From NCBI GenBank assembly GCA_030625765.1, contig DAOUQG010000006.1, forward strand, positions 1 to 33,775: DNA of 33,775 nt, written 5' to 3'. Position 1 is the stretch's first letter, and each line of letters opens with the position of its first letter. The notes beneath the pieces were generated by a model, which was not told the origin of the DNA, did not search any database, and saw only the letters and a program-made list of their open reading frames with translations. The translations under genes were made by a program, and so were the position numbers. This DNA is from Thermohalobacteraceae bacterium. GTDB taxonomy: Bacteria; Bacillota; Clostridia; Tissierellales; VENL01. Shown here in pieces: positions 8,456-33,775 of this stretch.

Positions 8456-8934
8456 ATTTGAATATAAAATCATTATTAGACTACCTATAAGGAATTAAAC
8501 TGAGAATACTAAATACAACAGAAAATTGGATAGTACTTTCTTGCTTTTGAAAAATATTTTTCCCGTTTAGATAGTGAGAAGTATTTTGAGAACTATGATA
8601 ATGATATTTTATATGAATGGTTTTAGAGGTTTTTTGTTCTATTATGTAAGGAGTAAAATATAAAACTAATAACAATTTGAAATAAGCTGTCTTAATTGAT
8701 ATAATTTATTGTATTAAGTAATGTAGGATGGTGGAATATTTGGAAGCATGTGCCTATTTTTGCAAAAACATTGATAAACACCAAAAACAGGCGATTTTGA
8801 ATAGAGAAAGAATACTTTTTATGATTGGGAAACTATTAAGAAACTTATAAGAAAGTAATTTAACAGAACCTAGGTTTTTATGAATCCCTTAATATTCGAA
8901 AAGAGCACAAAAAATATTTTTGAAAGGTGATATT

Positions 8935-9753
8935 ATGAGTATTTATAGTGTAGTAAATATCGATGTTGTTGGATCAAGAAAATTAAAAGACAGAGGTGAG
9001 AAACAGGAAATAATAAAGTGTTATATTGAGAAGGTGGAAAAGGAATTTGAAAAGCTTCTAGTAGCACCTATCACTTGGACATTAGGTGATGAATGGCAAA
9101 TAGTATTAAACAAACCTTCTAAGAGTTACTATGTTATAGAAAGATTCCAAAAACTATTGAAAAGCGACGGCATTGATATTTATGCAGGAATAGGAATTGG
9201 TAAGCTACAAACAAATATCTATAAAGATACTAGACTTATGGATGGAGAATGTTTTATCAGAGCTAGACAAGCATTAGAGATTGCTAAAAAAAAGAATAGA
9301 TTTTATAATGACAAGATAAATAGTAAGGAAAATAATATTTATTTTGATGCTAAGGAAATTAAATTAAGCTCTATATATGAACATTTATATAAGTCAAGTC
9401 TTATGGATGTTGCAGCTACATCCTGTAAACAAACTAATTTAATAGATATAGACATGAACAAAGATGTCTTTGAAAACAACTTATTTTTAAATAATATAAT
9501 AAACACGCTAATTGAAAATAATGAGGTTTTGAAAAGCAGGATTACGAAAAAACAAACAGAGATTATAGAACTCTATGAGGACGTTGGTTCATATAGCAAT
9601 ATAATAAGCAAGAATAAAAACATTTCCAAATCTAGTATAAGTCAAAAGTTAAATGATTCAAATTACTTTGTTATTGAAAATAATAGATTTATGATTGCAT
9701 TACTTTTGAACTTTTACAGTAAAATTTGCGGGGGTAATATAAATGAATTTTAG
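8935..9753 (+). CDS. SatD-family protein with C-terminal HTH-like region
   Basis: VVNIDVVGSRKLKDR, WTLGDEWQ, IYAGIGIGKL, GECFIRARQALEIAK; C-terminal ITKKQTEIIELYEDVGSYSNIISKNKNISKSSISQKL resembles an HTH; aaaggtgat RBS before ATG 8935. Confidence 0.75.
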   Translation: MSIYSVVNIDVVGSRKLKDRGEKQEIIKCYIEKVEKEFEKLLVAPITWTLGDEWQIVLNKPSKSYYVIERFQKLLKSDGIDIYAGIGIGKLQTNIYKDTRLMDGECFIRARQALEIAKKKNRFYNDKINSKENNIYFDAKEIKLSSIYEHLYKSSLMDVAATSCKQTNLIDIDMNKDVFENNLFLNNIINTLIENNEVLKSRITKKQTEIIELYEDVGSYSNIISKNKNISKSSISQKLNDSNYFVIENNRFMIALLLNFYSKICGGNINEF

Positions 9754-10579
9754 AGTTTTATTATTTCTTGTTATTGGACACTTACTTAGTGATTTTATTT
9801 TCCAAAATAGTTCTATACTTAAAAAGAGATTTAGCGAAAATAAGAAGGAAATTATAGTTGGAAATTTACTTCATTGTTTAATACATTTTAGTTGTTCAGT
9901 GATATTAACACTATATTTTGTAATAGAAGGGCATTTAACATTGTTAGTTTATTTGATAAGTTTAATCCTTATAGCATGTGGACATTTTATTATTGACGTT
10001 TTAAAATCATTATTGATTTTGGGTTGGCCATCTATTCAAAACAATATTTATATATTTATATCGGACCAACTTTTACATATTCTTACAATAACATTGATTG
10101 TAATTGTTTATAATCCAAGTATAAACTTATCAAAAGCATTTTCTTTTATTAAAGATTATCCAAATAATATTGAGATATTTGATAGGTGGTTAATATTGAT
10201 TATTATCTTTTTTGCCTGCACTAGTGGTGTTGGAATTTTTATCAAAAAATTTATTACATATATAAATCTTAAGAAGTATAAGAAGTTTATTGACAAAGGA
10301 AATAGAATAATAGAAAAGAATTACGATGATCTAGGTATTTATAATGGAGGATATATAATAGGTATATTAGAAAGAATTCTTATATTATTAGGTATGGCGA
10401 TTGGACAACCTGGGATAATAGGGTTTGTACTTACAGCTAAATCAATTGCTAGATTCAAGAAATTAGATGATAGTAGGTTTTCTGAATATTTTATAGTAGG
10501 AACTTTTATTAGCTTTATTTGTGCAATAATAGGTGGTATATTTATAAGCTCACTACAAGTAATTCCAATCATCATATAA
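9743..10579 (+). CDS. DUF3307-like integral membrane protein
   Basis: LFLVIGHLLSDFIFQNSSILKKR...HCLIHFS N-terminus plus multiple hydrophobic segments; overlaps the SatD gene by 11 bp. Confidence 0.75.
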   Translation: MNFRVLLFLVIGHLLSDFIFQNSSILKKRFSENKKEIIVGNLLHCLIHFSCSVILTLYFVIEGHLTLLVYLISLILIACGHFIIDVLKSLLILGWPSIQNNIYIFISDQLLHILTITLIVIVYNPSINLSKAFSFIKDYPNNIEIFDRWLILIIIFFACTSGVGIFIKKFITYINLKKYKKFIDKGNRIIEKNYDDLGIYNGGYIIGILERILILLGMAIGQPGIIGFVLTAKSIARFKKLDDSRFSEYFIVGTFISFICAIIGGIFISSLQVIPIII

Positions 10580-10951
10580 AATAATTAAAGGCAGTTGTTT
10601 GTCTTTTGCTAGCTTTATAGCTTCTCTTGCCCTATAAAATGAAGGTCCATCCAATTGATTTACAGTTAGTTCAAAATCATTTATAGTGATCTCACCGATA
10701 CCAATACCAGTATAAAATTTGATTTCTGGCAAAGTATTTCTAAAAAACTTAATAACTTTTAAATAATCGCAGGGGTATTTTAGAAGTCCTTGCCATTCAT
10801 CACCAATGGTTATTAAAAATGGTGATGCAATAACATCTTTAAAATGTTCATTGGTTTGTTTTAGCATATCTATAATTTTATACTGTATCTTGTCACGGTT
10901 TTTTAATTTTCTTGAAGATCTTACATCACAAACTATAGTACAATAAATCAT
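10553..10951 (-). CDS. Short SatD-like protein (no HTH region), convergent with the DUF3307-like gene
   Basis: TIVCDVRSSRKLKNRDK, ITIGDEWQG, YTGIGIGEI, GPSFYRAREAIKLAKDKQ; clear paralogue of the N-terminal half of 8935-9753. Confidence 0.75.
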   Translation of the reverse strand: MIYCTIVCDVRSSRKLKNRDKIQYKIIDMLKQTNEHFKDVIASPFLITIGDEWQGLLKYPCDYLKVIKFFRNTLPEIKFYTGIGIGEITINDFELTVNQLDGPSFYRAREAIKLAKDKQLPLIILYDDWNYL

Positions 10952-28315: not shown

Positions 28316-28344
28316 TTGCATAAAAAAATTAAAGGTGTTATAAT
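28316..28344 (+). promoter_or_regulatory. Near-consensus sigma-A promoter for the micro-ORF region
   Basis: TTGCAT - 17 nt - TATAAT, just downstream of the preceding stop codon. Confidence 0.8.
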
Positions 28345-28399
28345 GATAGCTGTTAGCAATAAAAGGAAAAAACACATTATAAAAAGGAGGCTGTACAGA

Positions 28400-28486
28400 A
28401 TGATTTTATTTGGAAATGATAAAGTCTTTAAAACAATTAAATTTAATGAAACAAGTTACAGCCTGAGATTAGGTTTTTGCATATAA
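28400..28486 (+). CDS. 28-aa micro-ORF: MILFGNDKVFKTIKFNETSYSLRLGFCI
   Basis: Complete ATG-TAA frame behind aaaaaggaggctgtacagaATG RBS and a strong promoter. Confidence 0.6.
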   Translation: MILFGNDKVFKTIKFNETSYSLRLGFCI

Positions 28487-28555
28487 TTTAGATAATAGCT
28501 TTTTTATAAGTTTTTATAAATGTTAGTTATGTTTGAATTTAATTATAGAAATCTT

Positions 28556-28585
28556 GTCGCAGGCTGTGGAGTCTGCGACTTTTAT
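28556..28585 (+). terminator. CGCAG-stem hairpin 1
   Basis: GTCGCAG-gctgtggagt-CTGCGACTTTTAT. Confidence 0.7.
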
Positions 28586-28695
28586 ATTTTGATATAAATC
28601 AACAGGTGATTATCTTATACATATTTCAAACAGGTTCTAATATAGATTATAAGACAGGTTAAATGTGTGTATTTAGAATAATTATTTGAATAAGT

Positions 28696-28720
28696 CGCAG
28701 GTATTTTACCTGCGTTTTTT
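28696..28720 (+). terminator. CGCAG-stem hairpin 2 (terminator-like)
   Basis: CGCAGGTA-ttt-TACCTGCGTTTTTT. Confidence 0.85.
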
Positions 28721-28783
28721 ATGTCATAAAGTATAAATAGCCATTTGTTAATAGGGTATGTCATGTTTAATTAACGATATGAT

Positions 28784-28818
28784 AAAACGCAGACTAAAGA
28801 AGTTTGCGTTTTTTATTT
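28784..28818 (+). terminator. CGCAG-stem hairpin 3 (terminator-like)
   Basis: AAAACGCAGACT-aaaga-AGTTTGCGTTTTTTATTTT. Confidence 0.8.
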
Positions 28819-28849: not shown

Positions 28850-28951
28850 ATGCTATTAATATTTGATGCTAATGTTCAAGTTGTTAATTTTAAGTCTCAA
28901 AAAAGAGATATAGGTTTAGAAGAGTACAGAAGACATGAATACAGAAAGTAA
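28850..28951 (+). CDS. Micro-ORF array member A: MLLIFDANVQVVNFKSQKRDIGLEEYRRHEYRK
   Basis: aaaaggaggtgagaaatATG; shared QKRDxGLEEYxxxEYRK motif. Confidence 0.8.
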   Translation: MLLIFDANVQVVNFKSQKRDIGLEEYRRHEYRK

Positions 28952-28989
28952 GTGTGAAGTAGAAAATAGAATTTGAGGAGGTGAGAGAT

Positions 28990-29100
28990 ATGCTATACAC
29001 ATTTAATGAAATAAAGAATAAGTTAAAGTTTGAAAGTCAAAAAAAGGACAATGGGCTAGAAATATATCGCAAGCTTGAGTATCGTAGAGACATAAAATAA
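28990..29100 (+). CDS. Micro-ORF array member B: MLYTFNEIKNKLKFESQKKDNGLEIYRKLEYRRDIK
   Basis: gaggaggtgagagatATG; shared motif SQKKDNGLEIYRKLEYRR. Confidence 0.8.
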   Translation: MLYTFNEIKNKLKFESQKKDNGLEIYRKLEYRRDIK

Positions 29101-29123
29101 GTAAGTCAGTAAGAGGTGATAAT

Positions 29124-29225
29124 ATGACATTAACATACCAAGATATGATGAAAAAAATGGGTCTAAAAGGACAAAAAAGAGATGTAGGATTAGAAGAATA
29201 TGTAAACACAGGTCACAGGAGGTGA
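29124..29225 (+). CDS. Micro-ORF array member C: MTLTYQDMMKKMGLKGQKRDVGLEEYVNTGHRR
   Basis: aagaggtgataatATG; QKRDVGLEEY; final codons AGG AGG TGA double as the RBS of member D. Confidence 0.8.
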   Translation: MTLTYQDMMKKMGLKGQKRDVGLEEYVNTGHRR

Positions 29226-29230
29226 TGAAA

Positions 29231-29335
29231 ATGATGCAGCTATTTGAAACTAGTATAGAGAGTATAAGATTAACAGAACAAAAGAGAGATAGAGGATTAG
29301 AAGAGTACTTAAAGATGGAATATAAAAGGATATAA
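29231..29335 (+). CDS. Micro-ORF array member D: MMQLFETSIESIRLTEQKRDRGLEEYLKMEYKRI
   Basis: aggaggtgatgaaaATG; QKRDRGLEEYLKMEYKR. Confidence 0.8.
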   Translation: MMQLFETSIESIRLTEQKRDRGLEEYLKMEYKRI

Positions 29336-29371
29336 ATGAACAACAAAATAAATGTTTAAAGGAGAATAAAA

Positions 29372-29458
29372 ATGTATGATGTAATAGAAGGATATGATTT
29401 GATGAAAGGTTTAGGACTTGAACAGTTTATAAGATTGGAATTTAGGCATTACACATAA
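29372..29458 (+). CDS. Micro-ORF array member E (divergent): MYDVIEGYDLMKGLGLEQFIRLEFRHYT
   Basis: aaaggagaataaaaATG; GLGLEQFIRLEFR aligns with xGLEEYxxxEYR. Confidence 0.7.
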   Translation: MYDVIEGYDLMKGLGLEQFIRLEFRHYT

Positions 29459-29490: not shown

Positions 29491-29546
29491 ACTGATTGCA
29501 TTTACTTTGTTTGGTTCATGCAAGGAACATAGCAAATGCAATCAGT
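29491..29546. repeat. Long 21-bp-stem hairpin (19/21 paired) closing the micro-ORF region
   Basis: ACTGATTGCATTTACTTTGTT / AACATAGCAAATGCAATCAGT. Confidence 0.85.
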
Positions 29547-29653: not shown

Positions 29654-30574
29654 ATGGAAGAAATTTTTAGAAAATACAATGATTGTGAGCATTATTTAAA
29701 GATAAGAGATTTTATAGTATCTACATACAAAATATTTAATAGACCTTATAACTGGTTGATTGAGCGATGGAATTTTTGTCGTCATTATGTTGTTGTTATG
29801 CATTCAAATACTAAGGAATGGGAAGATACAATTGGTATTTGGGAAGATATTAATGGAAACATTTTAGCAGTTGTTCACTCCGAAGGCGAGGAGAGTGGAG
29901 AAGTCTTTTTTGAGGTTGGAACAACTAATATCACAAAAGATTTATTAGAAGAAATGTTCGAGTTTGCTGAAAACAACCTTTCTATCAAGAAAAATTGCAA
30001 GCAATTTATCCAATTGCGTATACCAGACTGTGATAAACAACGTGAGCATATTGCAGCAAGCAGAGGATATGAAAAGCTATCTTGGAGTGAAACTACTTCA
30101 GTAATTTCTATTGAGGATAGACAAGAAGGGAGATTGCCCAAGGGTTTTACTATAAAAGAAGGATCTGATTTAAGTGATGAAGTAAAGGGAGAAGCACATG
30201 CTAAGGCATTTGGGTATTTTGATAATAAAGAGCATGCAGAAAAATCACCCTCAGCGTATAACTTGATAAAAAAAGCACCAGATTATAGATCGGATTTAGA
30301 TCTTTATGTTATTTCTGAATCAGGCGAAGTGGCTTCATTCTGTACTATGTGGTTTGATGAAACTAATAAAATTGGAATTCTTGAGCCTGTTGGGACTAAT
30401 CCAAATTATAGAAAAATGGGGTTAGGGCGAGCTGTTATTGGAGAGGCACTTAGACGAATTGCATTAGAGGGTGCAACAAAAGCTTATGTTGGTTCAGCAC
30501 AGGATTTCTATACTTCAATAGGGTTTCAAAAAGAATATAAGTATAATGTATGGGAAAAGGTTTTGAATGAATAA
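29654..30574 (+). CDS. GNAT family N-acetyltransferase
   Basis: GILEPVGTNPNYRKMGLGRAVIGEALRRIALEGATKAYVGSAQDFYTSIGF. Confidence 0.9.
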   Translation: MEEIFRKYNDCEHYLKIRDFIVSTYKIFNRPYNWLIERWNFCRHYVVVMHSNTKEWEDTIGIWEDINGNILAVVHSEGEESGEVFFEVGTTNITKDLLEEMFEFAENNLSIKKNCKQFIQLRIPDCDKQREHIAASRGYEKLSWSETTSVISIEDRQEGRLPKGFTIKEGSDLSDEVKGEAHAKAFGYFDNKEHAEKSPSAYNLIKKAPDYRSDLDLYVISESGEVASFCTMWFDETNKIGILEPVGTNPNYRKMGLGRAVIGEALRRIALEGATKAYVGSAQDFYTSIGFQKEYKYNVWEKVLNE

Positions 30575-31826: not shown

Positions 31827-31856
31827 ACTCCGTCAATATTAAAGGGGGAGGACTTG

Positions 31857-33775
31857 ATGGGAAATATAAAAATAGTTGAATATAACAATTCATATGCTAA
31901 ATCAATAGCAAAAATGTGGGATATGAGTGGAGATAGCTGGGGTGGTGGAAATGCAGCACCTACAGAAGCAGATATAATCGAGGAACATGAAAATACTGAT
32001 AATTTGAATATTTACTTAGCTCTTGATGATGAAGAGGTTGTAGGTTACTGTTCATTTGCAGAATACAAATTCGATAAAGGAGCATTATATATTCCGTTGC
32101 TTAACGTAAGACCTGATTATCATGGCAAGAAAGTTGGAAAAAAGCTAGTTTTAAAAGCTGTGAAAAGGACAATTGAGTTAGGCTGGCCAAGGTTAGATTT
32201 ATTTACTTGGCCTGGAAACACTAAAGCAGTTCCTTTATATAAAAAGACTGGCTTCTTTTGGGAAAAAAGGGATGATACAACTCATCTCATGAACTTTATA
32301 CCAACAGTATTAAACACAGAGGCTTTAAAGGAATACTTTGAAGATATAGATTGGTATAAGGATAGCATTAGACCCATAGAGATAAAGCCCGATGGTGATG
32401 AAGAAAGGGATTATGTAAATTATGAATATTTATGGGAAAAAGATGATAAGAGGGTAAGGGTAGAATTTGAAAGAACAGGAAGAGGAATAAGACTTATAGA
32501 AACAAATGATTATTTGATTGAAGCAATAGTGGAGGATCATAAGCTTATTTTTGGAAATGAGTATAATGTTGAATACCATATGGTTAATAAGACAGGTAAG
32601 CCCCTTGATGTTACTATCGAAGGCTTAGATGACAAAAACATAAAATTCTCAATGGAAGAATCAATCAGTGTACAATCACAACATACAATAAGTGGTATAT
32701 TTGAAGTCGAAGCGGTTGAAGAAGAGCAAAATTATTTTAGAACCCATCCAGCGGTAACTGCTGAAGTAACAATTAACGGCAAAAAGGTAGTATTGAAGAT
32801 AGGAATTGAACCATTATTCCCAGCTAAAATAAGCATATCTACACAGGATAATGAGAAGTATGTAGGTGTTAAATCTGAATGCTTCTTAAACCTTCAAAAC
32901 AACTTTAATGAGGACGTTGTATTTAAATTAACTTTACCTAAGTCTAGTGATATAGAATTTTCAAACAATGATTTTGAAATTAGTATGAAGGCCAAGGAGA
33001 GAAAATCAATTTCAATTCCTTATATTCTTAACAATGCATGTCTGTATAGTACCAAGGCTCAAATTAAAGCAATAACAAAAGATAATTCTATAACTTTCAC
33101 AAGGCAGCTAACGGGAATATTTAGAGGAAATGCTGGTAGCTTTGGAGGAGAAACCGAGGATTACTGGGTTATATGTAATGGGAAATATACATTGACATTA
33201 AGTAAATTTGATAATGATGTAGAATTTAAAACTTTTACAAAAAACATTTTTGACTTGTTTTTAATGAATCCTAAGCTGGGAATGCCATTATCGGGAGAAT
33301 TTTCTAAGAAAAAGCCTCAAGCAGTGGAATACATTGTTGAGGATGGTGACATAACCCTAAAGGCTGTATACAACTCGTCAGACTTTAAGAACATTGAATT
33401 AGCTGCAATTTTTACGTTATCTGCAAATGGTATTATAAAACATTATTATGAGGTTACTAATTTTGCAGATAGCAAAACTGAAAAAGAAATATGGGTAAGG
33501 AAATGCTTTTATCATAATCTTGCCAATGCGTTTATCCCATATCAGAATGAAATAATTCATAATGCTGGTTCTCATGCTCCAGTTATAGATTTTTGGGATA
33601 GCAGTAGGTTTTCAGAGAATTGGATATTCTCGAAGGACGGAGATTTATCTAGAGGTGTTTGCTGGTCTGAAAAAAGTAAATTTAAGCTTATCGGATGGCA
33701 TGTGGCTGTAGATGATAATGTTGGCTTTATAGATAGTAAACAAACAATTGTTACAGAGCCTATGTATATAGCCAT
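31857..33775 (+). CDS. GNAT acetyltransferase with long C-terminal beta-rich extension (3' end outside window)
   Basis: Frame open from ATG 31857 to window end; LLNVRPDYHGKKVGKKLVLKAVKRTIELGWPRLDLFTWPGNTKAVPLYKKTGF GNAT core then >400 aa extension. Confidence 0.85.
   Translation, partial: MGNIKIVEYNNSYAKSIAKMWDMSGDSWGGGNAAPTEADIIEEHENTDNLNIYLALDDEEVVGYCSFAEYKFDKGALYIPLLNVRPDYHGKKVGKKLVLKAVKRTIELGWPRLDLFTWPGNTKAVPLYKKTGFFWEKRDDTTHLMNFIPTVLNTEALKEYFEDIDWYKDSIRPIEIKPDGDEERDYVNYEYLWEKDDKRVRVEFERTGRGIRLIETNDYLIEAIVEDHKLIFGNEYNVEYHMVNKTGKPLDVTIEGLDDKNIKFSMEESISVQSQHTISGIFEVEAVEEEQNYFRTHPAVTAEVTINGKKVVLKIGIEPLFPAKISISTQDNEKYVGVKSECFLNLQNNFNEDVVFKLTLPKSSDIEFSNNDFEISMKAKERKSISIPYILNNACLYSTKAQIKAITKDNSITFTRQLTGIFRGNAGSFGGETEDYWVICNGKYTLTLSKFDNDVEFKTFTKNIFDLFLMNPKLGMPLSGEFSKKKPQAVEYIVEDGDITLKAVYNSSDFKNIELAAIFTLSANGIIKHYYEVTNFADSKTEKEIWVRKCFYHNLANAFIPYQNEIIHNAGSHAPVIDFWDSSRFSENWIFSKDGDLSRGVCWSEKSKFKLIGWHVAVDDNVGFIDSKQTIVTEPMYIA

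Follow-up and report, generated by a model that had tools for sequence, protein, structure and literature searches.

Tandem microprotein genes downstream of a probable ribosome-mediated transcription attenuator in Tissierellales

The window (the whole 33,775-nucleotide stretch analysed, from a Thermohalobacteraceae bacterium of the order Tissierellales) carries five consecutive micro-ORFs on the + strand. They lie at 28850-28951 (33 aa), 28990-29100 (36 aa), 29124-29225 (33 aa), 29231-29335 (34 aa), and 29372-29458 (28 aa), and each has its own ribosome-binding site (RBS): AGGAGG upstream of micro-ORFs 1, 2, and 4, GAGG upstream of micro-ORF 3, and AGGAG upstream of micro-ORF 5. The core QKRDxGLEEYxxxEYRR is common to micro-ORFs 1-4, and the divergent micro-ORF 5, which ends in Thr, belongs to a last-position subtype. 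The initial annotation had described these five ORFs of 28-36 aa with their RBSs and C-terminal motif, and all of them were found at these positions. Its remark that the peptides contain no Cys holds for the five in the window but not for the family, in which 8 of 51 members have Cys. The last codons of micro-ORF 3, AGG AGG (Arg-Arg), double as the Shine-Dalgarno sequence of micro-ORF 4 (29204-29231), and the same arrangement occurs in a related array (L038, about 8065). Downstream of the array, a 12-bp hairpin was read directly from the + strand at 29492-29545; it was picked up by neither terminator scan and is possibly a weak terminator or a stabiliser of the RNA end. Because it has no clear T-run, the GNAT gene at 29654 may receive read-through. 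A second array, with two copies, is present elsewhere in the same genome (G000:C131:863-1056). Apart from the array, the window contains two similar proteins (..DVVGSRKLKDRGEK.. and ..DVRSSRKLKNRDK..), encoded on opposite strands at 8920-9753 and 10553-10951 and flanking a membrane protein gene; by eye they resemble SatD-type proteins.

Related arrays are found mainly within the order of the window's genome. Built from the window's five peptides alone, an HMM detected arrays in other Tissierellales families and, within the window's own family, five tandem copies in a second genome (G002, best E 4.7e-13). Wider genome searches were based on a 51-member alignment; within the order, 28 of the 250 genomes searched match this profile, the weakest matches probably by chance. 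In a class sample of 312 genomes, one genome matched beyond the window's own, and a phylum sample of 399 genomes gave no convincing member. Members were counted in 12 family-level groups, 11 inside Tissierellales and one outside, a count that takes in two arrays found through their attenuators (L135 and L136). A degenerate DNA pattern matched five stretches, of which four contained family members. The peptides of the family, about 30 aa long (median 30), carry the motif K-x-D-x-G-L-x-E-Y-x-K-L-E-Y-R-R near the C-terminus and occur in up to six or seven tandem copies per array. In several families the final copy often represents a separate subtype with the ending ..ESxTxT or ..DNT, so positions within arrays look orthologous. 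At three loci from three families (L047, L054, and L110), a micro-ORF ending in ..YLYGGDFxW overlaps the RBS of a family member, and the two are possibly translationally coupled. A class IV aminotransferase gene lies upstream of eight arrays; a functional link was considered, and the association was read as conserved gene order.

Substitution patterns indicate that the reading frames are what is conserved. Over eleven pairs (nine between genomes and two within one genome), pN/pS was 0.23 in frame, compared with 1.56 and 1.81 in the other two frames, and codon choice beneath the motif varies freely among synonyms, which is not the pattern of conserved nucleotides. Judged by these comparisons, the micro-ORFs are translated genes under selection. 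The initial annotation had argued for selected, translated peptides from their repeated duplication, and both the synonymous bias, confined to the coding frame, and the recurrence of arrays in other genomes and families of the order bear this out. AlphaFold predicted two helices (residues 2-16 and 21-32) with a mean pLDDT of 75 and a pTM of 0.29, values at which details of the fold are uncertain. Searches of Pfam, NCBIfam, PHROGs, and PDB with the peptides gave nothing significant (four weak PHROG matches had E above 0.008), and no Pfam family, Bac_small_yrzI (PF09501) included, matched any of the 51 members. A tblastn search of phages and plasmids with the family gave no match, and a literature search found nothing on it. 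The earlier proposal of a multi-copy family of cytosolic peptides outside any named family is thus upheld, and the libraries searched returned no characterised small-protein family; its example of adaptors that bind one shared target is conjectural. Being two-helix, signal-less, and mildly basic, the peptides most likely act inside the cell.

Upstream of the array lies a probable transcription attenuator (28386-28812) that was absent from the initial annotation. All of its elements are on the + strand. An extended -10 promoter element, TGTTATAAT, was read directly at 28336-28344, with a weak -35 (TTGCAT) at 28316; it is tentative because it falls below the consensus-scan threshold. The leader ORF, MILFGNDKVFKTIKFNETSYSLRLGFCI, occupies 28400-28486 and has its own RBS (AGGAGG), which lies in segment A (GGAGGCTGT, 28386-28394). 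Within the leader ORF, segment B (ACAGCCTGAGATTAGG, 28458-28473) has two alternative pairing partners: segment A and segment C, the 5' arm of the first terminator. Terminator scans placed three terminators between the leader and the array: T1 at 28556-28579, T2 at 28696-28714 with the same CGCAGG core as T1, and T3 at 28784-28812 with the same core (CGCAG). Shuffled sequences gave 0.1 terminators, compared with the three in this region. The locus has a short upstream ORF with its own RBS, intrinsic termination sites ahead of the regulated genes, and mutually exclusive, co-varying anti-antiterminator (A:B) and antiterminator (B:C) pairings. These features are shared with ribosome-mediated attenuators of the bmrB and rli80 type, which are further marked by induction by ribosome-targeting drugs that depends on leader translation. 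Rfam searches under gathering and E-value thresholds matched no family to the leader.

The alternative pairings recur among related loci. The A:B duplex in the window has a predicted energy of -13.3 kcal/mol, and over 23 loci the own-locus mean was -14.0 for both A:B and B:C. Permuted loci averaged -11.3 (A:B) and -10.2 (B:C), and none of 20000 permutations was as good; the 23 loci are non-redundant but related by descent, and permutation removes this kinship only in part. Compensating changes were observed from TCGCAGG/CCTGCGA to TTGCAGG/CCTGCAA in one array attenuator (L040) and to CCATAGG/CCTATG at exporter loci. Among 29 leaders compared, the position of the ORF and its B segment are conserved and the peptide is not; B sits in differing reading frames, indicating that the RNA rather than the leader peptide is conserved. 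Among these attenuators, as many as four terminators with similar arms stand in tandem. Segment B pairs with later terminators at -13 to -16 kcal/mol in three of them (L049, L041, and L050); in the window its pairings with T2 (-11.4) and T3 (-3.5) are weaker. Stepwise strand exchange along the tandem terminators is a possible feature of the switch. From these sequence features, an attenuator switch at the array is probable and well supported.

The same switch is shared by other arrays and by other types of cargo. The leader/terminator layout was also found before eight arrays (L038, L039, L041, L043, L046, L048, L049, and L050), the attenuator lies inside two (L040 and L051), and a more divergent form occurs at L047, L054, and L110. 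About seven arrays have plain promoters instead. An exact leader pattern occurred only at arrays in 250 genomes of the order, except for one coding-looking match, and in 399 genomes of the phylum it gave six matches away from arrays, also coding-looking. Far greater sensitivity came from a covariance model (R1) that was trained on nine leaders and applied to 60 relatives. It placed the attenuator before most arrays and revealed two arrays missed by the peptide HMM (L135 and L136, in family f10), for which that HMM afterwards gave supporting E-values of about 2e-4 and 1e-6. Elsewhere in the order, R1 found the attenuator before 14 heterodimeric multidrug ABC exporter pairs, which are orthologous to the pair at L138 (57-79% identity) and resemble multidrug ABC exporters of solved structure. 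The genome of the window itself has an attenuator (L134, G000:C248, 2668-2820) before an MFS efflux-type transporter gene at 2991. Another (L148, G028:C10, 1656-1823), whose stem has co-varied to GACTGT/ACAGTC, precedes a gene at 2058 for an HflX GTPase (TIGR03156 at 2.4e-127) with an extra N-terminal region. The model also placed the attenuator before a GNAT protein (L137), and in G001 the orthologous attenuator stands directly before a GNAT gene with no array, indicating that its cargo can change. A protein longer than 1000 aa whose N-terminus is a GNAT domain recurs next to the array locus (in the window at 31854-33775) and once lies directly behind an attenuator (L137, 1890-5003). About 75-413 bases past a weaker attenuator match (L153, G045:C58), there are three RBS-equipped micro-ORFs unrelated to the family, perhaps another microprotein cargo. 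Short ORFs before the first ABC gene at L149 and L152 (ending in KKGFKEYG and KKREGKEYG) were considered as relics of the family and were rejected since they gave no score.

Taken as one operon, the locus would encode conserved two-helix cytosolic microproteins with a role in translation stress, controlled by ribosome-mediated attenuation; we regard this overall reading as reasonably probable. When the leader is translated normally, the ribosome would cover segment B, T1 would form, and transcription would stop. With no ribosomes present, segment A would hold B and T1 would form again. A ribosome stalled early in the leader by a translation inhibitor would cover A, leaving B to pair with the 5' arm of T1; B may then pair with T2 and beyond in turn, so that polymerase reads into the array. 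The microproteins would thus be produced during translation stress, as part of a tolerance regulon, and would help survival by binding a cytosolic target, with a ribosome- or RNA-associated one as the first guess. Several points count against this reading: a single antiterminator has more difficulty in overcoming three terminators in a row, about seven arrays do without the switch, the G001 switch has a GNAT gene but no array behind it, and the GNAT gene at 29654 may be on the transcript of the window array. Induction by ribosome stalling is what we infer from this arrangement. Because the arrays share their attenuator with drug exporters and HflX, they would answer translation stress (guilt by regulation), and a stress role of the microproteins is likely. 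That their target is the ribosome itself is a guess, and a rather tentative one. Leaders of this kind mediate induction of bmrCD and hflXr by lincomycin or erythromycin (PMC4191407, PMC6310831).

Other explanations differ in what they take the peptides to be. The micro-ORFs could themselves act as additional leader ORFs that regulate whichever gene comes next (GNAT, M29 aminopeptidase, or rRNA methyltransferase), with the peptides as by-products, since same-strand downstream genes are close in several loci, no clear terminator follows the window array, and the G001 attenuator directly precedes a GNAT gene. The next gene varies among loci, however, and is convergent at L037, L039, L045, L050, and L052, with or without an attenuator. 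Terminators follow the array at L037, L039, L045, L046, L048, L050, L052, and L056, and the smallest operon (L109) has just two micro-ORFs between its promoter and a terminator-like hairpin. The convergent genes, the 3' terminators, and the L109 operon indicate that the peptides are the end product; conservation of their sequence with free synonymous change also makes a leader function unlikely. Leaderless secreted or membrane-active peptides, exported by nearby ABC systems in the manner of phenol-soluble modulins, are a further candidate. Like the array, the psm-alpha operon of staphylococci is a tandem series of paralogous micro-ORFs that each have an RBS and encode no signal peptide; its products are membrane-active, amphipathic, and served by a dedicated exporter. 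Members of the array family also have an amphipathic N-terminal stretch, and ABC genes lie near four arrays (L042, L044, L047, and L053). On the other hand, what is conserved in the peptides is a C-terminal helix rich in charge, the mean net charge of members is only +1.6, an adjacent exporter is absent from most arrays, that of the window among them, and no exporter is a consistent neighbour; psm-alpha has neither the motif nor the attenuator. Secretion is accordingly quite improbable.

Membership in, or derivation from, the DUF1127/YjiS small stress proteins, which bind sensor kinases or RNA, is suggested by small size, several copies per genome, a short D-x-G-L motif, and a profile score above all 100 column-shuffled controls. 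Against it, none of the 51 members gave a Pfam match at E 0.5 or reached the PF06568 gathering score of 23.3 bits, hhalign gave a probability of 0.6-2% over 4-8 columns, and PF06568 was not found in the window's genome. We consider such a relationship very doubtful; homology was rejected on the Pfam and hhalign results. By analogy, DUF1127 proteins are still the closest functional counterpart. The Sinorhizobium meliloti gene duf1127_1 is controlled by a uORF that senses translation and contains a structure pairing with an RBS, so that a small-protein gene is likewise switched by translation status through pairing of an RBS within the leader (PMC12218461). That system differs in being Rho-dependent, where the window's uses intrinsic terminators, and in controlling a single gene in Proteobacteria, whose product is not detectably homologous to the peptides. 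In Agrobacterium tumefaciens, DUF1127 members bind PhoR (PMC12501420).

Characterised attenuators provide closer parallels for the switch. The bmrBCD locus of Bacillus subtilis, with its BmrB leader, has a short translated leader ORF, a terminator, an antiterminator, an anti-antiterminator, and intrinsic termination (PMC4191407), and its cargo is an ABC exporter pair, as at the 14 loci in relatives. The window attenuator differs in its microprotein-array cargo, its tandem terminators (up to four in attenuators of this type), and its leader peptide. Ribosome-dependent attenuation also controls rli80-hflXr in Listeria, with an HflX cargo as at L148 (PMC6310831). The array attenuator lacks the RLR-type 14-aa leader of that system, which in turn has no microproteins.

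Known translation-stress genes under attenuator control encode pumps, ABC-F proteins, methylases, or HflX. Here an attenuator of the same kind probably governs a family unmatched in the searched libraries and too small for gene callers, whose multi-copy arrays are spread through a Bacillota order. More speculatively, the array may represent a new class of antibiotic-response effectors: helical hairpins of about 30 aa, produced upon ribosome stalling, that would act on the translation apparatus or on some other common target by binding it and would make cells more tolerant of ribosome-targeting drugs. Tandem duplication would have diversified their N-termini, and the terminators would form a walking attenuator disarmed serially by one leader strand. 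If the proposed regulation is confirmed, it would extend the response to such drugs by a layer of small proteins, offer a direct route to induce and catch the peptides, and allow the RNA model to find the regulon in unannotated genomes.
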